64,000 nucleotides of DNA. It comes from Halorientalis litorea. GTDB taxonomy: Archaea; Halobacteriota; Halobacteria; Halobacteriales; Haloarculaceae. A program made the translations under genes and the position numbers. Below, in pieces: positions 5,285-54,074 of this stretch (positions within the stretch are counted from its first letter, which is position 1; every line of letters begins with the position of its first letter). The stretch lies in contig NZ_CP095482.1 of NCBI RefSeq assembly GCF_023028225.1, positions 2,294,001 to 2,358,000 of the forward strand. Reading direction: 5' to 3'. The notes below the pieces were generated by a model, which saw only the letters and a list, made by a program, of their open reading frames with translations, was not told the origin of the DNA and did no database searches.

Positions 5285-5656
5285 TTACTGTGTCGCGGCG
5301 TCGTACTCTTTGAGTGTCTCGACAGCCACGTCGTCGAGGACGGCCTCCGCCGTCGCCTCCAGCACGACGGGCGGCGCGACGCCCGCCTCGTGGGCCTCGA
5401 CCCACCGCGGCACACAGAGACACCACCGGTCGCCCGGTTCGAGGCCCGGAAACCCCAAATCCGGCCGGGGCGTCACGAGGTCGTTCCCCTGTGCCCTGCT
5501 GAACTGGAGGAACTCCTCGGTCACCACCGCACACACCTCGTGTCGGCCGGGGTCTCGTTGCAGGTGTCGACAGTACCCGTCCCGGAGATAGCCCGTCTCC
5601 GGGTCCCCGCTACAGCGTTCGAGGGCCGTTCCGAGGACGTTACGCTCGTCGCTCAT
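5285..5656 (-). CDS. DUF2237 family protein
   Basis: 123 residues, matching the family over the whole length: NVLGTALERCSGDPETGYLRDGYC near the start, then VCAVVTEEFLQFSRAQGNDL, PGLEPGDRWCLCVPRW and EAGVAPPVVLEATAEAVL. Several cysteines are in conserved positions (about 14, 29, 42 and in WCLC). The family is found in bacteria, archaea and some eukaryotes and has no firmly assigned activity. ATG 5656 gives the family start; the frame also extends upstream into the intergenic region, without homology. A TATA-like GGATACTTTT about 25-30 bp upstream suggests a near-leaderless transcript. Confidence 0.85.
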   Translation of the reverse strand: MSDERNVLGTALERCSGDPETGYLRDGYCRHLQRDPGRHEVCAVVTEEFLQFSRAQGNDLVTPRPDLGFPGLEPGDRWCLCVPRWVEAHEAGVAPPVVLEATAEAVLDDVAVETLKEYDAATQ

Positions 5657-5725
5657 AGTCGTGTTCGGGGCGGGAACCTGAAAAGTATCCCGAGCGGTAA
5701 CTTGGGCTGTAGGAGTGATATATAC

Positions 5726-5744
5726 TCCCGGGCGGATTCGAACC
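5726..5744 (-). repeat. Copy of the tRNA-Gln 3' end (possible integration scar)
   Basis: The 19-mer tcccgggcggattcgaacc at 5726-5744 is identical to 5827-5845, the T-arm and acceptor 3' strand of the tRNA-Gln gene, displaced by 101 bp on the downstream side of the tRNA. There is no matching acceptor 5' strand upstream of it, so it is not a second tRNA. Such duplicated tRNA 3' ends are the usual footprint of site-specific integration; the roughly 80 bp left between the copies would be the remnant. A 10-bp-stem hairpin fills 5747-5770. Confidence 0.55.
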
Positions 5745-5824
5745 TTGACGGCACGAATCCTCGCGCCGTCTGCTTCGAATCCACCGTCGGCTATTTGCTC
5801 CTCACGTCCGTTCGTCGCAAAAGT

Positions 5825-5942
5825 AGTCCCGGGCGGATTCGAACCGCCGTCAACGGCTGACCTCACAGCACAACCCAGCGAGCGGTTGCTCGGATTGAAC
5901 TGCTCCAAAGGCCGCTATGATTGGCCACTACACCACGGGACT
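5825..5942 (-). tRNA. tRNA-Gln (anticodon UUG) with intron
   Basis: On the minus strand, the acceptor 5' strand AGUCCCG (5942-5936) pairs with CGGGACU (5831-5825); the T-arm is GGCGG-UUCGAAU-CCGCC; the anticodon stem GCGGC pairs with GCCGU when 46 nt are removed. The 7-nt loop is CUUUGGA with anticodon UUG (complement of 5906-5908), reading CAA = Gln. The mature tRNA would be 72 nt without CCA, which is not encoded. An intron after position 37 is the standard archaeal site, and an intron in tRNA-Gln(UUG) is known in Haloferax. Confidence 0.9.
5859..5904 (-). other. Intron in tRNA-Gln
   Basis: 46 nt inserted between nucleotides 37 and 38 of the anticodon loop. The boundaries were set by restoring the anticodon stem. 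The flanks (GUUGUGCUGUGAGGUC on the 3' side) should form the bulge-helix-bulge cut by the archaeal splicing endonuclease; the exact bulges need a folding calculation. Confidence 0.75.
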
Positions 5943-5976
5943 GCAATTAGTGGCACTGGCTGAATGGGTAAGAGTG

Positions 5977-6741
5977 TTACTCTTGAACGCCATCCGGCAG
6001 GGTGACTGAAATATCGATACGCCCATCTTCCACTTCGTGGTGACACGACCGACAGAGTGCGACGAGGTTCTCCATCGTGTGTGCATCCTGCGCGTTCTCG
6101 AACGCCCGCATCGGAGTGATATGATGTACGTCTGGATTCTGCCCGAGCTCTTCGGCTTCGACTCCACAAACCTGGCAACGGTATCCGTCACGCGCGAGGA
6201 CCTTGCGGCGGATCGAGCACCAACGACCGTAGTACCCCTCGTCTCCACCTTGCCACTGCTGATGCTTCTTACCGCGCCGGTTCTCGGACATCCATTCGGA
6301 CAGACACTCACGAGAACAAAAACGGCCCATACCGTACCGACGATTGCACTCGAGAACCGTTATCTCCGTACTGCAGTAGTCACAGTTCCTAGTTACTCTG
6401 TCGGCGTCGACGGTTTCAGCGTACGGTGTCCCCAGAAACTCGTCGGCTTCTTCGACACATTCCGAACAGTATACCCCTTTCTTATTTGAGGGATAAAAAT
6501 CGAACTCGTCACCGCACCGTCCGCACTCTGTCGCCTCTTTCGCGCCTTTCCAGTTGCCGTTGTTCTCTCCCCCATTCGGGTTACAGTCGTCGCAATATTC
6601 GAGGCGCGCCTTTGGGTCATAAAAACCAGTCCCGCACCCTGAGCACTCTCGGTTCGGCAACGGATCATCGTGGACTTTGGTGTGATGCTGTCGCATTCCA
6701 CGCTCCGTCGAGAGTCTCTTTCCACAGGTGGGACACTCCAT
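5977..6741 (-). CDS. HNH endonuclease with several zinc fingers
   Basis: 254 residues from ATG 6741 (a TTG at 6768 would add 9). N-terminal C2H2 finger CPTCGKRL...HHTKVH, then Cys pairs in CSGCGTGF...CDDC, CGRCGDEF...CSEC and CDYCSTEI...CSREC. The C-terminal HNH nuclease domain is RDGYRCQVCG ... DVHHITP ... ENLVALCRSCHH, with all metal-binding cysteines and the His-His/Asn/His core intact. Short NGNWKG and HQQWQGG motifs resemble DNA-contacting repeats of phage HNH enzymes. Base composition is visibly less GC-rich than neighbours. Position immediately 5' of tRNA-Gln suggests acquisition; it is a free-standing homing-type or phage-derived nuclease rather than a housekeeping gene. Confidence 0.85.
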   Translation of the reverse strand: MECPTCGKRLSTERGMRQHHTKVHDDPLPNRECSGCGTGFYDPKARLEYCDDCNPNGGENNGNWKGAKEATECGRCGDEFDFYPSNKKGVYCSECVEEADEFLGTPYAETVDADRVTRNCDYCSTEITVLECNRRYGMGRFCSRECLSEWMSENRRGKKHQQWQGGDEGYYGRWCSIRRKVLARDGYRCQVCGVEAEELGQNPDVHHITPMRAFENAQDAHTMENLVALCRSCHHEVEDGRIDISVTLPDGVQE

Positions 6742-6801
6742 AGCTGGAACTGCACCTCCATCCGACAAATATCTCCGTCTGACGGGGTGAAATAATATCT
6801 G

Positions 6802-7239
6802 TCAGTCCGCCGGGTCGGGGTCGGCTTCGACATCTAGCAGGCCGCATACGTCCTCTTCAGGGGCGAAGCAGTCCGGGCACTGCGGGGCGCGGTCGATAAT
6901 CGTGTCGAGGCGTTCGGCCACTGTCTCGTCGATGACCGGTTCGAGTTGCTTGGCCTCGGTACGAAACTCCTCGACGTCGAGCACTTCGAGCAGAAACCGC
7001 TCGATGATACAGTACGTCTGGAGTGCCTCGCGGGCCGCGACGATGCCCTCGTCGGTGAGCGTGACGCCCTTGTACTTCTCGTGGTCGAGCAGCTCGCGCT
7101 CTTCGAGTTTGCCGATCATCTCGTTGGCACTCGCGGGACTGACCTCCAGCATGTCCGCGACGCGACCCGTCGACGCTGGCCCGTCCTCCTGTTCCTGTAC
7201 GAGGTAGATGGCCTTGAGGTACTGGTCGGCGGTGTTCAT
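6802..7239 (-). CDS. DtxR/MntR-family metal-dependent transcriptional regulator
   Basis: 145 residues. N-terminal winged helix: QYLKAIYLVQEQEDGPASTGRVADMLEVSPASANEMIGKLEERELLDHEKYKGVTLTDEG, the canonical DtxR start. The dimerisation/metal-binding helix follows (CIIERFLLEVLDVEEFRTEAKQLEPVIDETVAERLD) with a Cys and Glu at the expected metal-1/2 sites, although the classic HHRL-type His pair is not obvious (IIERFL). The C-terminus holds CPDCF and a later Cys, common in haloarchaeal members. It lacks the SH3 domain of full-length DtxR. Next to a ferritin-like gene and the suf operon, it is a good candidate for the regulator acting on the TTAGG-N4-CCTAA boxes at 11544 and 53184. Confidence 0.85.
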   Translation of the reverse strand: MNTADQYLKAIYLVQEQEDGPASTGRVADMLEVSPASANEMIGKLEERELLDHEKYKGVTLTDEGIVAAREALQTYCIIERFLLEVLDVEEFRTEAKQLEPVIDETVAERLDTIIDRAPQCPDCFAPEEDVCGLLDVEADPDPAD

Positions 7240-7294
7240 CGGTTCCCCTCCCGTCGGTCACACCAGTTCGCGGCGGTGTCTCGCTTGTTTCGTG

Positions 7295-7783
7295 TCATGC
7301 TCCCGTCTCCATGAGTTCCGTGACCTGTTCGACGCCGTCGGCCTCGTCCTCGCGGATGGCTTCGAGCGTGTCGAGTAGTTCCCCGCGGTCGATGCTGAAC
7401 TCGGCGTCGGAGTCCTCGACGGCTCCGATGAGGTCGTCGTAGAACTTGTAGGCGGTCTCCTCGTTACAGAGTTGGTCGTAGAGGACGCCGTCGAAGTCCG
7501 CCTCGGCCTCGTACTGCTGTGCGACTAACCCCTTTATTTCCTCGAACGGAATCGTGTCGGCGTCGAGTTGGTCGATGACGCCTTCCAGTCGCTCGCGGTG
7601 GGCGGCCGACTCCGCGGCGGCCTCGTCCAACAGTGCCTCCACGTCCGGGTCGGTCGTCTCCAGCGATTTGGCGTGTTCGCCGGCACGTGCTTCGACCACC
7701 TCTTCAAGGACGACGCCGATCTGGAGCAGGCGCGCGAGTTGGTGGTCCCCCGACACCGACTGCTGGATGCTCACGGCGACCAC
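7295..7783 (-). CDS. Ferritin-like four-helix protein
   Basis: 162 residues, GTG start. Four long helices are predicted, with metal-ligand type residues spaced as in ferritin-like folds: LLQIGVVLEEVVEARAGEHAKSL (Glu and His), then ESAAHRERLEGVI, and later QQYEAEADFDGVLYDQLCNEETAYKFYDDLI (Glu-rich). It is probably an iron-binding or oxidoreductase protein related to rubrerythrin/DUF-type ferritin-like proteins. GTG 7783 is chosen because GGAG lies 5 nt upstream; GTG 7774 would give MSIQQSV. Transcription from a TATA-like element at 7827-7836 would begin near an 11-codon frame (7771-7806) that overlaps this start. It lies between the DtxR-type regulator and sufD. Confidence 0.75.
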   Translation of the reverse strand: MVAVSIQQSVSGDHQLARLLQIGVVLEEVVEARAGEHAKSLETTDPDVEALLDEAAAESAAHRERLEGVIDQLDADTIPFEEIKGLVAQQYEAEADFDGVLYDQLCNEETAYKFYDDLIGAVEDSDAEFSIDRGELLDTLEAIREDEADGVEQVTELMETGA

Positions 7784-10607: not shown

Positions 10608-11540
10608 TTACGCGGCCTCGTAGACTTCCTCGCGCACCCAGTCGTACCCCTTGTCCTCCAGTTTCTCTGCCAGCGACGCGTCGCCGGACTTGGCGATTTC
10701 GCCGTCTATCATGACGTGGACGTGGTCCGGTTCGACGTAGTCGAGAATGCGCTGATAGTGGGTAATCTGGAGGATGCCCGCGCCCTCCTCGTCACGGAGT
10801 GCGTTGATGCCGTTGGAGACGTCCTGCAGGCGGTCGATGTCGAGCCCCGAGTCGATTTCGTCGAGCACGGCGACGGACGGTTCGAGGATGGCGGCCTGCA
10901 GCACCTCGTTTTGCTTCTTCTCGCCGCCGGAGAAGCCGGCGTTGAGGTATCGCTGGGCGAACCGCTCGTCCATGTCCAACTGTTCCATCTTCTCCTGGAG
11001 AATTTCCTGGAACTCGGCGACGCCGATGTCACCCTCGTCGGCGGGGCCTTCCATCGGGGACGTGTCGTAGCCGGCGGCGTCCTCGTTCGTCTCCTCTTCG
11101 CTCTCGGCCTCGACTTCGTCCTCGTCTTCGAACAGTTCCTCGCGCTCTTCGAGTTTGGCGTTCAGCGCGGTCCGGAGGAAGTTGACCATCGTGACGCCTT
11201 CGATTTCGGCGGGGTACTGGAAGCCGAGGAAGATGCCGAGCGCGGCGCGCTCGTTCGGCTCCAGTTCCAGTAGATTCCACGTCTGCAGGTCCTCGGGAAT
11301 TTCCTCGTCCATGTCTCCGAACTCGTCGGCGTCGAGGTGGAGCAGAACCTCGCCGTCGGTCACCTCGTAGGCCGGGTGGCCGGCGATGACCTTCGCAGTC
11401 GTCGACTTCCCGCTTCCGTTCGGCCCCATCAACGCGTGAATCTCACCGGACTGTACTTCGAGGTCGACGCCGCGCAGAATGGTTTCGCCGCCCTCTTCGG
11501 CGACTTCCGCATGAAGGTTCGATATTTCGAGTGTTGCCAT
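10608..11540 (-). CDS. sufC: Fe-S assembly ATPase SufC (with acidic insertion)
   Basis: 310 residues, against about 250 in bacterial SufC. Walker A is GPNGSGKST (about 39-47), the ABC signature is [15 protein letters not shown], Walker B is [17 protein letters not shown] and the H-loop is ITHYQRIL. The extra length is mostly an acidic stretch around residues 120-165 ([17 protein letters not shown]...), inserted before the signature helix; such insertions are common in salt-adapted proteins. SufC hydrolyses ATP to drive conformational change in SufB-SufD. It is first in the operon sufC-sufB-sufD, with an iron-box-like repeat 4 bp upstream of its ATG. Confidence 0.93.
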
Positions 11541-11543
11541 AAT

Positions 11544-11557
11544 TTAGGGTCACCTAA
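11544..11557 (-). promoter_or_regulatory. TTAGG-N4-CCTAA inverted repeat before sufC (putative iron/metal operator)
   Basis: TTAGG (11544-11548), GTCA, CCTAA (11553-11557). The half-sites match the TTAGG/CCTAA core bound by DtxR/IdeR-type regulators in bacteria and resemble motifs reported for haloarchaeal Idr proteins. A TATA-like AGTATTATG at about 11587-11595 on the minus strand puts the expected start near 11563, so the box lies between the start site and the sufC ATG, a repressor position. The same half-sites with the same spacing occur at 53184. Confidence 0.6.
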
Positions 11558-13587: not shown

Positions 13588-16500
13588 TCACATGAAGTTG
13601 CCCAGCCCCGTCTGCTCCTGCCCGCTTTTGACCTCGTCCCACGACACGTCCAGTGCCTCCAGAATCCGCTCGATTGGCCCCTTCAGTGTCTTTTCGAGCA
13701 TCTTGTCCCAGTCCACCTCGAACTCTTCGGGTATCTGGTCCTCGTACTCGAAGCAGATGACGTCGGGGTCACGTCGAAACTCCCCGTAGAGGGGGTCTTC
13801 GGCCGGGTCGAGTCCTCGCTCGGCCTCCACACGGTCCCAGAAGTCCGAGTGAATCCGCCGGAGGTAGAGCCGCTTTGGCTTGGACCCGCTGTTGAAGTTC
13901 GTCCCCAACAGGAGGTTGGCGTACTTCGCCCCCCGAACTTGGGCGGTGTCGGTGTCGTAGTTGTCCAGTTTCTTCCCGATACCGCCCGGGATGCCCACGT
14001 CGTCTAAGCTGACGTTCCCCTCCTCGAAGTCCTCGATCACCTCGTGGACGTACTCTTTGATGTTCTCGACGTCGTCGCCCGTGACGATGCGGTCGATGAC
14101 TTCCTTCTGGACCTCCTTGGTAATCGGCGCGATGTCCGACCGCTGGTACTCGAAGCCCGTGATGTCGATGTCGTCGACGTCTTTCCCCTCCTTCCAGACG
14201 ATGTGTCCGGCGTAGCGTTTCTTCTTGCCTGCTTGGAAGAACCGCCGGTAGAGCTTCTCGAACTCGATTTCGAAGCGGTGGAACTCTGCGTCCAGTTGTT
14301 CGAGTGCGAACTCGTCGTACGATTCGTTGATGACCTCCTCCAACTCGAAGCCCTTGCGGATGGTCGCGGCAATCTGGCGGAGTTCCTCGTCGTCCATCTC
14401 CGGATGCTTCTCGCGCATGGCGTCGGTAACCTCAACGTCGCCCTCGACATCATCTGGTCCGACGCCACCAACCTCCAGCATCACCGAGTCGGTGTCACCG
14501 TAGATTACTTCGTACCCCTCGTTCTCGACGACTTCGTCAGTGTACTCGATGACTTCCCGTCCGGTGGCAGTGACCGCCGCGCCCATCTCCTTGTCGTACA
14601 GGCGGAATCGGTCCCACCCGAGAACGCCGTAGAGTGATTGACCGACGAACTGGAACTTGCCGTTCCTGCCCGCTAACAGCGTATGATTGTCCTCGACGGT
14701 GACACAGTAGACGCCGTCGTCGGCCGTCGAGCGTTCCGCACTCCGGTGCATCCGGAGCGTGTTCTTGCTGTCCTCGGTGACGTAGATGCGGTACGTCCCG
14801 CTGTCCTCGTTGTAACTGGCTGTGAGGCCGAGGTGGGCGCAGAGACGGAGCACGTCGTCACGGAGTCGCTCGCTCGCAGTACTATACCGCCACGAGTTCG
14901 TCTGCCAGTCTCCGTCACCATCGATGAGTGTATCGAGGAAGCGGCGTTTCTGGCGGTCGCTCACTTCGAAGACGAACTCGGGGATCCGCTTCTCGAAGCT
15001 GTCGGCTCCACAGGTTGTTTCGAGCCACTCACCGAGCAGTCTAGACGTGAACTGGTACCCCTTCTCGTCGACGTACGGGTCGAAACCCATCCGGTCGAGG
15101 AGGCTCCCGATGGCAGTATGGTCGTCGGCCGCTCCGCCGTCCGCGATAGCATCTTGAGCTACCTGCACAGTTGTCGCGCTCCCACGGAAATTCTCGCCAA
15201 ACTGCTTGTCCTCGGACGTGTGGACCGACCCTTCGGTAATGTACCAGGCGAGCAGTTCGAGGAAATCGTCACCGTCGAAGAACCGCGGAATCCACTTCCG
15301 GCCACGCTCACCGTGGACATAGAACTCCGAACAGACCCCGTCCAGATATTCTCGGTGTTCCTCGAACTCGTCGGCGGTAAACACGTATCCCGTATCGTCC
15401 ACCTCTTGTCGAACTATCTTGTCGGGATACCAGCCGACTTCGGACGCGAGTGTGTGCCCGTGAACGTCGTTGTTTGCCCACACCTCGAACTCACAATCCA
15501 GTAGTTCGGTAAAGTCTACTTCACTGAGTTCTTGGCCGTCCGGTCCGCTCCAGTCGTGCGGGAGTTCGTAGTTCGTCGCGTCGTCCAGTTCACCAGCTTC
15601 GACGAAGTCATACTCGTCCTCCGTAATGCCGTTCGTCTCGTTTTTCCGAACGAGCATCCGGTGGTTCGGCGTCACGTTGAAGTCGATTTCGCTCGTCTCG
15701 ATGTCGACCACCTCACCGCGGTAGTCGGGATACGCGTGGGTTTCGACGACGGGCTTCACCTCCATCTGCATCGTTTCGGGGTCCAACGAGTATACCTCGT
15801 CACCGACACCGAGGTCCCGGATGTTCTGGACACCCTCGGGAGTCAGCACGTCAGTATCCGGGGTGAAGCAGTTCATAATTACCTTGACAGCTGCCTGCTG
15901 TCGGTCGAACCGCTCGTACTCTCGGCTGTCCGGGTCGTAGTCGTTCCGGCGGGCCTTCTTCTCCTCGCGTTCGGTGAGGAGTTCGTCGACCATCTCCCGG
16001 ATGGCCCCGTCTGGTTCCTTGCGGAAGTGCTGGCCGTTAGGGGCTCTGAAACTCTCGCCCTCGTAGGTATCGGGGTCGACCTTGGTCTCGGGGCTCGCGT
16101 TGATGGTGACCATGCACATCGGGTAGAGCGATTGACCGATCCACTGGAAGTTCCCATTTCGACCAGCGAGGACGACGTGGTTGTCCTCTGCAGTAATACA
16201 GTGGACGTTGCCGTCGTGTTCTTCGACGGTCGCGTTCGTCGATTTCTTGAACGATCCTCGCTTGCCAACAGAGACGTACCACGTTCCATCAGACTGTTTC
16301 GAGACCGTCGGTTTGTGGCCACAGCGAACAGCGACGGTGGCGATTCCGTCCTTGAGCGATTCACTTTTGGTCCAGAACTTTCCGAGCCCGGAGTCCGCGC
16401 GGCTCCCGTCACCCCGAATCATCGTGTTCAGGAGGACCGTCAGGAGTTCGCCGTCGAAATCGAAGACCCACTCCGGAAGCCGTTTTTCACTGTATCCTTT

Positions 16501-18873
16501 CCCGCAGTTCTCGACGAACCAGTCGAGGAGATATTCGTTGGAAACATTGACTCCGGTCTCGTCGACATTGTAGTTGATGCCCATCTCGTCGAGGAGACGA
16601 CAGATTGCCTCCCGTTCCGAGTCTGTGTCCTGATGAATGACGATCCGACCGGCAGCACGGTCTGCACTTCCCTCGGTGACGTACCAGCCGACGAGTTCGA
16701 GCCAATTAGCCATCTCGAAAGAGAGGGGAGTCTCCCGGTGTTGTGCATCGTACTTGAGGAACACTTCGTCGGCGTGTTCATCGATGACATTCCGATATTC
16801 GCGGTAGACCGGCAGTGGTACTAGATACTTCCCGACCTTCTTCTGGAGCCCCATCGCCTCCGAGGTACCGTGAACGAGGTCGAGTGAGTCCGTGACCTGC
16901 TCCGGCATCCGATGGCGGAACTCCCGGAGGTCGTCCTCGTAGTAGGCAACGACGTGTCCACCGTCGATCTCGTCGATCAGGTCGAATGTTTCCGGCGAAC
17001 GGCCAGCCATCGCCTCGTGCTGGGGGAACGCATATCGTTCGTATTCGGGGACATCCCGGTACTCCGCGAACTCGAAATCCGCCGGGTCCTGTTCGTCCCA
17101 GCCACGTTCCTTCGAGTAGAGCATCCGGTGGTTCTCGGTGATCTTGAAGTCGTGCGTGTTGCCCGAGAGGTGGTGAAGTTCGCCGAATTTGTTCTCGTAC
17201 TCGTGGGTTTCTGCGACGGGTTTGACCTCACACTCGAACGTGTCGGGGTCCAGCGTGTACACGTCCTCCCCCTCGTCGATTTCGGTGATACTCTTGGGCC
17301 CATCCGGCGTGAGAACGTCAGTATCCGGACTGAAGCATTTCAAGTCCAGCACTGTCACCATGTCGCGCACGCCCGTGATGGGGTCGAACACCGCACCGCC
17401 CTCGTAGTCCTCGGCGTCGTGTTGCCCCTTCGAGGGGAGGGCGAACTCGCCGTGGAGTTTGTGGAGGACGTACATGTCCACGGCGTCACCGGGGGTGGTC
17501 GCGTCTTCGAGTTTACAGCCGACGAAAGAGGCCACCTCCTGCCAGAACGGGATGATGTCCTGTTGCTCGTTCAACTCGACACAGAGTTCCACGTCGCGGA
17601 GATTGTACTCCAGCAGTCGCTCCGGGTCGTCCTCCCAGAGGTCACCGATGTCGCCGGGGTAGCGTTCCTTGCCGACGCCCAGTTCCTGCTCGCCGACGGC
17701 GTCCAGCCGATACGAGTCGAGTTCGGTGAACTTGGTTCGCTGGTACGCGTACAGCAGGTCGAACACCACCCGCCCCTTCACGTTCGGGCCTTGCCAGTCG
17801 TCGCGCCACACCTCGTCGACCCGCGAGAGGCGGTCGATGGAGAGGTCGTGGTCGTGGTGGGGACCTTGTAGCTCCTCCATGCGGTCGAGCAGATAGGGCG
17901 CGTCGAAGTCGGTGAAGTTCCACCCCGTCACGAGGTCCGGGTCGGTGTCCTCGATGTAGGTGACGAACGCGTCGAGCATCGCTTCCTCCGTCTCGAAGAC
18001 GCGCACGTCGGCCTCGAAGTCGTCCTCGATGGGGTCGTAGCCGTCGAGGGACTCCGGGGCGTCGGTCCCCGCGTCAGCGTCGGCCAGCCACGCGACGTAC
18101 TCGTCGTCGTCGGAGTCGTGGGAGGTGAGACAGACGATTGGCTCCTCGCCGTCCTCGGGGAAGCCGTGCCGGTCCTCGACTTCGATGTCGAAGGTGTTCA
18201 CGCGCGGTTCGGCGTGGGCGTCGACGGCCCGGACCTCCTCGTGTGGCACGCGAAGGGGGCCGTCGTCGCCGTCGCCCTCGCGGCGCGTCGGGACCCGAAT
18301 CCCGCTGGTCACGTCCTTGTCGATGAGGAACCGGTTGGGAAACAGGATGTCGGCCTCGTAGTGGTCGAACTCGTCGCGCATCTGCCCCACGTCGCGGGGC
18401 GTCTGGCCGAATATCTTGGTCAGGTGTTCGCCCCGAATCGACTCGTAGGGGTCGCCGTCCCCGTCGGTCTCCTCGTAGCCCGTGATGGCACCGCGCTCCA
18501 AGTCCGCGGGGTCGAGCGAGTCGGTCGGCGCGTAGAAGTACGGGCGGAACTCGTACACCTCGACGTGGACCGTCTCGCGGTTATCGGGAGTGCGACCGAA
18601 GACGTGGATGACGGGGTACTCTTCGCCGTCGGCACTGTACTCGACGGTGTAGTCGACCTGCGTCACCGCGAGCGTCGTCTCGCCGTCGGCCTCGGGATAC
18701 TTGAACTCGTCTACGTCGACGACCTCGAACGACGACCCGCCGCGGCCGGCGACGGCCCGCGCCTCGGCCTCCGCGTCACGGGTGGCGTCGGCGGCCGCTT
18801 CGTCGCCGTCGCCGCCGCTCCCGCCTGCGAAATCGCCGAGTCCTGTCTGTCCGTTTGCCCCGGTCCCGTCCAT
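13588..18873 (-). CDS. polB: Family B DNA polymerase with two inteins
   Basis: 1761 residues as translated; 948 after removal of two inteins (residues 513-914 and 1002-1412). Exonuclease motifs: Exo I FDIEVEDRHG, Exo II TGWNFTDFDAPYL, Exo III YNLRDVELC. Polymerase motif A is VLDLK|SLYPMCM (split by intein 1 before Ser), motif B is VKVIMN|SLYGVLG (split by intein 2 before Ser), motif C is YGDTDSVML, uninterrupted. All catalytic Asp residues are present, so the polymerase should be active once spliced. The C-terminal thumb region is intact and the protein ends in a short GLGNFM tail resembling a PCNA-binding peptide; the N-terminus carries a matching GLGDF. A minus-strand TATA-like GATTTTAGTC at about 18898-18907 implies a leaderless mRNA. 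Confidence 0.95.
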   Translation of the reverse strand: MDGTGANGQTGLGDFAGGSGGDGDEAAADATRDAEAEARAVAGRGGSSFEVVDVDEFKYPEADGETTLAVTQVDYTVEYSADGEEYPVIHVFGRTPDNRETVHVEVYEFRPYFYAPTDSLDPADLERGAITGYEETDGDGDPYESIRGEHLTKIFGQTPRDVGQMRDEFDHYEADILFPNRFLIDKDVTSGIRVPTRREGDGDDGPLRVPHEEVRAVDAHAEPRVNTFDIEVEDRHGFPEDGEEPIVCLTSHDSDDDEYVAWLADADAGTDAPESLDGYDPIEDDFEADVRVFETEEAMLDAFVTYIEDTDPDLVTGWNFTDFDAPYLLDRMEELQGPHHDHDLSIDRLSRVDEVWRDDWQGPNVKGRVVFDLLYAYQRTKFTELDSYRLDAVGEQELGVGKERYPGDIGDLWEDDPERLLEYNLRDVELCVELNEQQDIIPFWQEVASFVGCKLEDATTPGDAVDMYVLHKLHGEFALPSKGQHDAEDYEGGAVFDPITGVRDMVTVLDLKCFSPDTDVLTPDGPKSITEIDEGEDVYTLDPDTFECEVKPVAETHEYENKFGELHHLSGNTHDFKITENHRMLYSKERGWDEQDPADFEFAEYRDVPEYERYAFPQHEAMAGRSPETFDLIDEIDGGHVVAYYEDDLREFRHRMPEQVTDSLDLVHGTSEAMGLQKKVGKYLVPLPVYREYRNVIDEHADEVFLKYDAQHRETPLSFEMANWLELVGWYVTEGSADRAAGRIVIHQDTDSEREAICRLLDEMGINYNVDETGVNVSNEYLLDWFVENCGKGYSEKRLPEWVFDFDGELLTVLLNTMIRGDGSRADSGLGKFWTKSESLKDGIATVAVRCGHKPTVSKQSDGTWYVSVGKRGSFKKSTNATVEEHDGNVHCITAEDNHVVLAGRNGNFQWIGQSLYPMCMVTINASPETKVDPDTYEGESFRAPNGQHFRKEPDGAIREMVDELLTEREEKKARRNDYDPDSREYERFDRQQAAVKVIMNCFTPDTDVLTPEGVQNIRDLGVGDEVYSLDPETMQMEVKPVVETHAYPDYRGEVVDIETSEIDFNVTPNHRMLVRKNETNGITEDEYDFVEAGELDDATNYELPHDWSGPDGQELSEVDFTELLDCEFEVWANNDVHGHTLASEVGWYPDKIVRQEVDDTGYVFTADEFEEHREYLDGVCSEFYVHGERGRKWIPRFFDGDDFLELLAWYITEGSVHTSEDKQFGENFRGSATTVQVAQDAIADGGAADDHTAIGSLLDRMGFDPYVDEKGYQFTSRLLGEWLETTCGADSFEKRIPEFVFEVSDRQKRRFLDTLIDGDGDWQTNSWRYSTASERLRDDVLRLCAHLGLTASYNEDSGTYRIYVTEDSKNTLRMHRSAERSTADDGVYCVTVEDNHTLLAGRNGKFQFVGQSLYGVLGWDRFRLYDKEMGAAVTATGREVIEYTDEVVENEGYEVIYGDTDSVMLEVGGVGPDDVEGDVEVTDAMREKHPEMDDEELRQIAATIRKGFELEEVINESYDEFALEQLDAEFHRFEIEFEKLYRRFFQAGKKKRYAGHIVWKEGKDVDDIDITGFEYQRSDIAPITKEVQKEVIDRIVTGDDVENIKEYVHEVIEDFEEGNVSLDDVGIPGGIGKKLDNYDTDTAQVRGAKYANLLLGTNFNSGSKPKRLYLRRIHSDFWDRVEAERGLDPAEDPLYGEFRRDPDVICFEYEDQIPEEFEVDWDKMLEKTLKGPIERILEALDVSWDEVKSGQEQTGLGNFM
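14638..15870 (-). other. Intein 2 of PolB (motif B), LAGLIDADG type
   Basis: 411 residues (PolB 1002-1412). It begins with Cys in CFTPDTDVLTPEG (splicing block A), has a block B-like NVTPNHRMLV, and ends in NHTLLAGRNGKFQFVGQ followed by Ser+1 (SLYG). The last residue is Gln, not the usual Asn, and the penultimate residue is Gly, not His. The endonuclease part keeps both LAGLIDADG helices: FLELLAWYITEGS and RFLDTLIDGDGD, each with its acidic residue, so the homing endonuclease may be active. Confidence 0.88.
16132..17337 (-). other. Intein 1 of PolB (motif A), LAGLIDADG type
   Basis: 402 residues (PolB 513-914). It starts with Cys in CFSPDTDVLTPDG, has block B KITENHRMLY, and ends in NHVVLAGRNGNFQWIGQ before Ser+1 (SLYP). 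As in intein 2, Gln replaces the terminal Asn. LAGLIDADG helices are WLELVGWYVTEGS and LLNTMIRGDGS with acidic residues kept. The ends of the two inteins are so alike that they are probably recent paralogues or share a source. Confidence 0.88.
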
Positions 18874-52519: not shown

Positions 52520-53101
52520 TCAGCGTCCGGTGTCGTACTTGTACGTCGCCTCCTCCGGGTCGATACCGAAGTCCTCCGGGCCTTCCTCGGGTTCGTCGCT
52601 CCCCTCGTCGGCGGCGGCGTGCTTGAACGCGTCGCGGAACCGCGCGGGCACCTCGAAGTCCACGACCGGCAGGGCCATCGGGACCGCCTCGGGTGCCGAC
52701 TTCTCGCGCTTGTCGGCGAGGCGAGCCTGTAACTTCTCCGGGAGGGCACTCTCCTCGACGCGCTCGAAGCCGAACTGCGCGAGGTAGTCGGGTGCGTCAC
52801 TCAACGAGTACACCGTCTCGAACCCCTCGTCGCCGGCCTTCTGGACGAGACGTTCGACGACGTGCGCGCCGACACCCTGCCCGCGCCAGCCGCCGAGCAC
52901 ACCGATGGACGTGAGTTCGCAGTGTTCGCCGTCGTCGGTCTTGTGAACCCGGATGCGACCGAACCCAGCCTTCTCGTTGGTCTCCTCGTCGATTGCGATG
53001 ACGTAGTCGCGCGACCGGAAGGCCGTCTCGTCCAGGCCCATCTCCTCGATGTGGTCCAGCAACCAGACCTCCTCACGGTTTTTCGCGTCCCGGACGTACA
53101 T
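52520..53101 (-). CDS. GNAT acetyltransferase with acidic C-terminal extension
   Basis: 193 residues. The GNAT core occupies about 1-125: VIAIDEETNEKAGFGRIRVHK, acetyl-CoA loop CELTSIGVLGGWRGQGVGAHVVERLVQKAGDEGF, then SDAPDYLAQFGFERVEE. The C-terminal 65 residues (LPEKLQARLADKREKSAPEAVPMALPVVDFEVPARFRDAF...) are not part of the standard fold and end in an acidic tail. This type is frequent in haloarchaea; acceptor unknown. TATA-like ACCCTTATCC at about 53126-53135 suggests a leaderless start. Confidence 0.83.
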   Translation of the reverse strand: MYVRDAKNREEVWLLDHIEEMGLDETAFRSRDYVIAIDEETNEKAGFGRIRVHKTDDGEHCELTSIGVLGGWRGQGVGAHVVERLVQKAGDEGFETVYSLSDAPDYLAQFGFERVEESALPEKLQARLADKREKSAPEAVPMALPVVDFEVPARFRDAFKHAAADEGSDEPEEGPEDFGIDPEEATYKYDTGR

Positions 53102-53181
53102 ACGGGACTATAGCCCCCCCGTGTGGATAAGGGTTTACTGCGTGCCCGTCCCCTCGACCGTAAGGTACTTTGACGACATCG

Positions 53182-53199
53182 TTTTAGGCTGACCTAAAA
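53182..53199 (+). promoter_or_regulatory. TTTTAGG-N4-CCTAAAA inverted repeat on a start codon (putative iron/metal operator)
   Basis: TTTTAGG (53182-53188), CTGA, CCTAAAA (53193-53199): perfect 7-bp arms with a 4-bp centre, the last A being the first base of the ATG at 53199. It shares TTAGG-N4-CCTAA with the box before sufC (11544). The position over the expected start site and start codon is suited to repression. A weak TATA-like AAGGTACTTT lies at 53162-53171. Confidence 0.65.
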
Positions 53200-54074
53200 T
53201 GCTTGGTGACACACTCTCCAACATCCGGGACCGCATCGACACGCTCGCCGTGCCCGACGGCGAGTACTGCGTCGTCTGTGGGCGGACGGGGGCACGGCCG
53301 GTGCCAGTCTGCGGGAAGCGGTTCCGCGACCGCAAGACGGCGCGGGCGGCGGCCGAGACGGCGACGGCGTACCGGGACGCACTCCGGCAGTGGGACCCGC
53401 AGGCACCGTGTTACGACTTCATCGTCTGTGAGGTTCCCGCGACAGTCGACGGCACTCCGGAGACGACGCGGCCGTCGCCCGGGCCGACCGACGCACTGTC
53501 GGATGCCTCGCTCACCGGGTTCTGCCACAACGTCGCCGCCGCGGTGTTCCAGACGCTCTCTGCCGAGGGATACGACGGCGTCGAGTCGGCCGTGATGGAC
53601 GTCTACTGTGAGTCCGCCACGTCGGTCACGGACCCGGACGACCTGTGTCTCCACCTGCTCAGGACGCTGGCGAACGAACTCGACGAGCGGTTGCCGCCGA
53701 TGGCACAGGATACCGTCCTCGAACGGGCGGCCGCGGCGTTCCCCGCCCCGGCGTCGACGGACGAACCGCTGACCGCGACGTTCGGCCGCCTCGAACGGGT
53801 CGGCCTCCTCGGCGACCACAGCCTCACGCCGCACCGTGAGGCGGTACTCGGCCGCCAGTCGTGGACGGTCACGCTGACGGCGTACCCGCTCGCGACGGCG
53901 GGCGACTGCTTCCCGACGCTACCGCTCGTCGTCGACCTCCGCAGGCGACTCCCGGAGACGGTCATTTCGCTGTCCTCGGCCGCACCGGCAGGCTCCGACC
54001 GGTGGGAGTTCGACCTCGCCGTCACCGAGACGGGGACGCCGAGCGGACTGACACGCGTCCCCGTCATCCCGTAG
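53199..54074 (+). CDS. Conserved haloarchaeal protein with N-terminal cysteine motif, under a putative iron box
   Basis: 291 residues. The N-terminus LGDTLSNIRDRIDTLAVPDGEYCVVCGRTGARPVPVCGKRF holds three Cys (about 24, 27, 38) that could bind metal. Then come ARAAAETATAYRDALRQWDPQAPCYDFIVCEVPA, a helical middle (ASLTGFCHNVAAAVFQTLSAEGYDGVESAVMDVYCES), and a C-terminal beta-rich part. I recognise a haloarchaeal family (I believe DUF7551) of unknown function. The TTTTAGG-N4-CCTAAAA repeat ends on its ATG, so its expression probably follows iron or manganese. No membrane segment or signal peptide. Confidence 0.72.
   Translation: MLGDTLSNIRDRIDTLAVPDGEYCVVCGRTGARPVPVCGKRFRDRKTARAAAETATAYRDALRQWDPQAPCYDFIVCEVPATVDGTPETTRPSPGPTDALSDASLTGFCHNVAAAVFQTLSAEGYDGVESAVMDVYCESATSVTDPDDLCLHLLRTLANELDERLPPMAQDTVLERAAAAFPAPASTDEPLTATFGRLERVGLLGDHSLTPHREAVLGRQSWTVTLTAYPLATAGDCFPTLPLVVDLRRRLPETVISLSSAAPAGSDRWEFDLAVTETGTPSGLTRVPVIP

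Follow-up and report, generated by a model that had tools for sequence, protein, structure and literature searches.

A TTAGG-N4-CCTAA operator at the start codon of a DUF7552-DUF7551 gene points to membership in a haloarchaeal DtxR-type iron regulon

In a stretch of 64,000 nucleotides of the Halorientalis litorea genome (contig NZ_CP095482.1, positions 2,294,001 to 2,358,000; hereafter, the window), a palindrome runs directly into the start codon of a gene whose two domains, DUF7552 and DUF7551, have no function given in Pfam, which raises the questions of what this site controls, which protein binds it and what the gene product does. The palindrome, TTTTAGG-CTGA-CCTAAAA (53182..53199, no strand assigned), consists of a left arm, TTTTAGG, at 53182-53188, a spacer, CTGA, at 53189-53192, and a right arm, CCTAAAA, at 53193-53199, and its final A doubles as the first letter of the ATG (53199-53201) of a plus-strand ORF (53199..54074). 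Direct reading bore out the original prediction of perfect 7-bp arms reaching the ATG, of a 291-residue protein behind the box, and of a TTAGG-N4-CCTAA twin before sufC. The window holds two perfect sites, starting at 11544 and 53184; the former (11544..11557, no strand assigned) lies 17 bp before the ATG of sufC (10608-11540, minus strand), in the same layout as the box at 53182. The further statement that there is no third copy is true of the window, whereas the genome holds 17. Allowing two mismatches gave a number of sites at chance level for the window, so that the perfect form alone is informative. Upstream of the box, a BRE/TATA-like element, ccgtaa-g-gtactttg (53158..53172, plus strand, by direct reading), ends 26 bp before the ATG, a position that would fit a leaderless transcript. 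Elsewhere in the window, a family-B DNA polymerase ORF of 1761 aa (13588-18873, minus strand) appears by eye to carry two intein insertions.

Across the 3.2-Mb genome, the 17 perfect TTAGG-N4-CCTAA sites compare with 2 for a reversed-pattern control, and an extended form of the box, TTTAGGYNNRCCTAAA, occurred 232 times in 58 related genomes, against a single occurrence of its reversed control. None of the 17 sites falls inside a gene; each precedes a called start, most of them by 15-30 bp. Sites were assigned to genes using fetched genome stretches and a simple ORF caller, whose start calls may be off by some codons. This promoter search, which had been proposed along with the original prediction, recovered siderophore-uptake genes in addition to sufC: boxes precede genes for a Peripla_BP_2 binding protein, a FecCD permease, an ABC ATPase and an SBP_bac_6 binding protein, as well as for an RGP-like protein, a YqcI/YcgG protein, a metallo-beta-lactamase, a DUF5059-plastocyanin protein, a Gluconate_2-dh3/GMC pair, and ComA and MmgE/PrpD homologues. 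Members of the FecCD and Peripla_BP_2 families generally handle ferric siderophores, and because siderophore-uptake genes and sufC carry the box, iron would be the most likely signal for this regulon, with the ComA, MmgE/PrpD and metallo-beta-lactamase genes, which have no evident iron role, as a point against that reading. A paralogue of the 53199-54074 protein, encoded on contig 2, is preceded by two boxes. Behind another box, in the same genome (positions 5602-7365 of locus L047) and in two relatives, a DUF7547 gene is followed by two HTH_63 genes; these three genes are candidates for further uncharacterised members of the iron regulon. The same trio adjoins a boxed siderophore operon in two other relatives (L065, L066, L134 and L136 being relatives' loci).

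The site is kept before orthologues of the target gene, as the original prediction had asked to see. The gene was present in all seven other Halorientalis genomes searched, each time with a perfect box at -15/-16. Of the named homologues from haloarchaea, 53 in number, 40 likewise carry a perfect box no more than 300 bp away, where 0.01 would be expected from simulated sequences of the same dinucleotide composition. Of the 570 other genes at these loci, 34 have such a box, including genes that share a promoter region with regulon genes. The -15 position is common to Halorussus and Halosimplex, the Haloferax homologues have the box at -86/-87, and in Natrinema and its relatives tandem boxes 36 bp apart lie upstream of the homologue. 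Two homologues had no perfect box in the fetched stretch and one had only a one-mismatch box; several homologues without a box of their own stand downstream of a boxed gene for a siderophore-binding protein, in many cases separated from it by an FAD oxidoreductase gene. In 15 promoters where the box sits at -15, TTTAGG, CCTAAA and the start codon show no change at all, conservation at the four letters of the spacer is 33-60%, and the first of these is always a pyrimidine. Most of the remaining positions are poorly conserved, apart from a BRE/TATA-like stretch between about -41 and -28, where C/T-rich and A/T positions are kept. The sufC box, for comparison, is kept at -16/-17 in 4 of the 5 other Halorientalis genomes examined, and less so further away. 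Tandem pairs are frequent upstream of both DUF7551 genes and siderophore-binding operons (nine loci, in addition to two in the H. litorea genome), with starts 34-37 bp and mostly 36 bp apart, a regularity that suggests cooperative binding.

A chance palindrome, which the chance-level two-mismatch count in the window might have favoured, is ruled out as next to impossible by the enrichment of perfect matches in the genome, the fixed position and diverging spacer of the box, and its conservation before orthologues (40 found against the 0.01 expected). Membership of the DUF7552-DUF7551 gene in a haloarchaeal DtxR-type iron regulon is strongly supported by the comparison of genomes, in line with its nomination as a candidate new member of the iron regulon in the original prediction: the box is kept before its orthologues, and the other boxed genes include those for ferric-siderophore uptake and sufC.

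The same comparison bears on the possibility that the box controls a divergent gene for a GNAT acetyltransferase (52520-53101, minus strand) instead of, or besides, the DUF7552-DUF7551 gene. Seen from the GNAT gene, the box is upstream of the start at a distance of 82 bp, within the range seen for some other boxed genes, but it stays at -15 of the DUF7551 gene at three loci in which other genes separate the GNAT gene from it, and it is also kept in other genera with different neighbours. Gene order in the relatives therefore rules out the GNAT gene as the conserved target, and we consider any such role of the box very unlikely.

The protein most likely to bind the box is a DtxR-family regulator of 145 aa encoded in the same window (6802..7239, minus strand), which matches both PF01325 (64.5 bits) and PF02742 (38.1 bits), the DNA-binding and dimerisation domains, above the cut-off. 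Close orthologues of this protein, defined by at least 60% identity, were found in 50 of the 58 genomes compared, and extended boxes occurred in 47 of these 50 versus 3 of the 8 genomes without an orthologue (Fisher p 0.0006, a value that overstates the evidence since the 8 genomes are partly small or incomplete and mutually related). In canonical DtxR, the metal ligands are His79, His98, Cys102 and His106. These are mostly absent from the 6802-7239 protein, which has Y76, R93, K97 and P101 at the aligned columns, and its close orthologues likewise lack most of them (loci L143-L162 compared). Instead, this protein and its close orthologues keep four cysteines, namely C77 and those of the tail CPDCF-x7-C (C121, C124 and C132), which suggests that the regulator may sense a metal or Fe-S through another site. 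Two distant homologues combine intact canonical ligands with the cysteine tail.

These features also bear on an alternative in which the box is a DtxR-type operator bound by another protein, or one that responds to manganese rather than iron. The genome encodes a second clear DtxR-family protein (G000:C1:524805), and the best NCBIfam scores of the 6802-7239 protein, which lacks most canonical metal ligands, are to MntR-type models, all far below the cut-off. However, the second gene has at its own start a palindrome, TTAGACGTGTCTAA, unlike the TTAGG-N4-CCTAA box, and the palindrome TTTAGACGTGTCTAAA, just before that start, is possibly an autoregulatory site of different specificity. Furthermore, the boxes track the close orthologue of the 6802-7239 regulator, and the targets are ferric-siderophore and Fe-S genes. 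On balance, binding by the second protein or a response to manganese seems unlikely, and the 6802-7239 protein with iron as the signal remains the preferred assignment.

What the boxed gene contributes can be approached from its domains and its neighbours. Its product is a full member of two Pfam families, with DUF7552 at residues 5-79 (112.6 bits versus a gathering cut-off of 27) and DUF7551 at residues 106-288 (196.4 versus 52.6); the link to the iron regulon is added here. A literature text search for DUF7551 gave no match. The original prediction pointed out three N-terminal cysteines; their reading as a metal motif is ruled out by an alignment of 47 homologues, in which C27 is kept in 44, but C24 in only 2 and C38 in only 1 (C77 is kept in 29). 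Five residues, C109, H110, Y136, C150 and Y229, are invariant across the 47. In other haloarchaea, the homologue is encoded together with siderophore-binding proteins, FecCD permease and ATPase, and a thioredoxin-reductase-like FAD enzyme; among 77 non-redundant DUF7552 genes, 24 are encoded alongside a siderophore-binding protein or an FAD oxidoreductase, and in 21 a DUF7260 gene comes next. Because of this co-occurrence with siderophore-binding, FecCD and FAD-enzyme genes, the product would most likely be a cytosolic accessory of ferric-siderophore or iron acquisition.

The predicted structure offers a second line of evidence on function. The full-length model has a mean pLDDT of 89.4, and that of the C-terminal domain alone 94.2, with a pTM of 0.90. 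The best structural matches of the latter are Nostoc H-NOX (probabilities 1.00 and 0.99, E 1.7e-3 and 6.7e-3, TM 0.43-0.45), with BcsD also heading the list and MopR sensor domains lower down; the likeness to the H-NOX, V4R and BcsD folds lies in five helices followed by a beta-beta-alpha-beta-beta arrangement. DUF7551 may accordingly be described as resembling H-NOX/V4R-type folds, a resemblance that falls below certainty and below a safe fold assignment. None of the 47 members matched HNOB or V4R in Pfam (HNOB at E values up to 10), profile searches of PDB sequences, one of them with the full profile, gave no match to any chain, and a viral structure library held no meaningful match. In H-NOX proteins, the proximal haem-binding histidine sits in a late helix before the sheet, whereas the only invariant histidine of DUF7551, H110, belongs to the domain's first helix and is not at the haem-binding position. 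Neither the sequence searches (the HNOB and PDB profile searches) nor the position of the histidine supports membership in the H-NOX family. The helix order of the model puts C109-H110 at the N-terminal end of helix one and C150 at that of helix three, which should bring them close together; they could hold iron or an iron ligand.

This structural likeness suggests another reading, in which the product senses or regulates the iron response through a ligand-binding H-NOX/V4R-like domain and takes no part in iron acquisition itself. The folds nearest to the C-domain model, those of Nostoc H-NOX and of the sensor domain of MopR, are of the sensor type, which argues for such a role; in Pfam searches, however, the protein showed no DNA-binding or kinase domain, and the genes that share its operons are for transport and redox functions. 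We regard a sensor as rather doubtful and favour the accessory of iron acquisition. The chemistry proposed for this accessory is itself speculative and can be put forward only tentatively. A bolder synthesis, which we think improbable in its entirety, would make DUF7551 a divergent H-NOX/V4R-type domain in archaeal iron acquisition, a cytosolic protein in which the invariant Cys-His/Cys site acts jointly with the co-encoded FAD oxidoreductase to draw iron, or a ligand of iron, from incoming ferric siderophores, while the DtxR metal site of the regulator has been swapped for a four-cysteine one. Should the protein help to free siderophore-bound iron, an open step in the uptake of iron by archaea would be filled.

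Taken as a whole, the best explanation, which we hold to be very probable, is that the box is a DtxR-type operator, that its regulator is likely the 6802-7239 protein, and that the product is an accessory of iron acquisition. As the same operator precedes uptake genes, repression is expected in iron-replete cells, and the role in iron storage that had been among the suggestions is not supported; most likely, the gene would be repressed when iron is plentiful and is probably on when it is scarce. Under this model, the operator falls between the TATA-like element and the ATG of what is probably a leaderless gene, a metal-loaded dimer of the regulator on the box would keep RNA polymerase from starting, and when iron falls, the regulator would leave the box and the gene would be expressed. 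The idea that the box blocks both transcription and the start codon survives in part, restated as a block of transcription start at a leaderless promoter; a block of translation itself does not, since the repressor would be bound to DNA. For a protein family found repeatedly in haloarchaea and listed in Pfam without a function, the analysis offers a first lead to a function, and it describes a regulon in which the operator sits between TATA-like element and start codon.

The operator type is already known in haloarchaea, whereas the family of the target protein is uncharacterised. Leyn and Rodionov reportedly described a FerR regulon signal in haloarchaea in 2015. The 6802-7239 protein may correspond to TroR, judging from its suf-gene neighbourhood. 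The TroR motif is described as lying about 100 nt upstream of start codons, whereas the boxes described here are mostly 15-30 bp before the start, with the Haloferax homologues of the target gene at -86/-87. Haloferax volcanii is reported to use TroR, SirR and Idr, and there the regulon signal stands before all fhu siderophore-uptake genes or operons (PMC11349517). A DUF7552 gene is also present in H. volcanii. With this FerR/TroR/Idr/SirR regulon, the present one shares DtxR-family regulators and siderophore-uptake targets, a likeness drawn from regulator family and targets.

The operator consensus of bacterial DtxR/IdeR is an inverted repeat with TTAGG half-sites. Compared with the bacterial proteins, the likely regulator here lacks the third (SH3-like) domain and most canonical metal ligands. 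The common ground is the TTAGG inverted-repeat half-sites together with a DtxR-family regulator, but the haloarchaeal box is a shorter core palindrome, with a 4-bp spacer, set in an archaeal promoter context.
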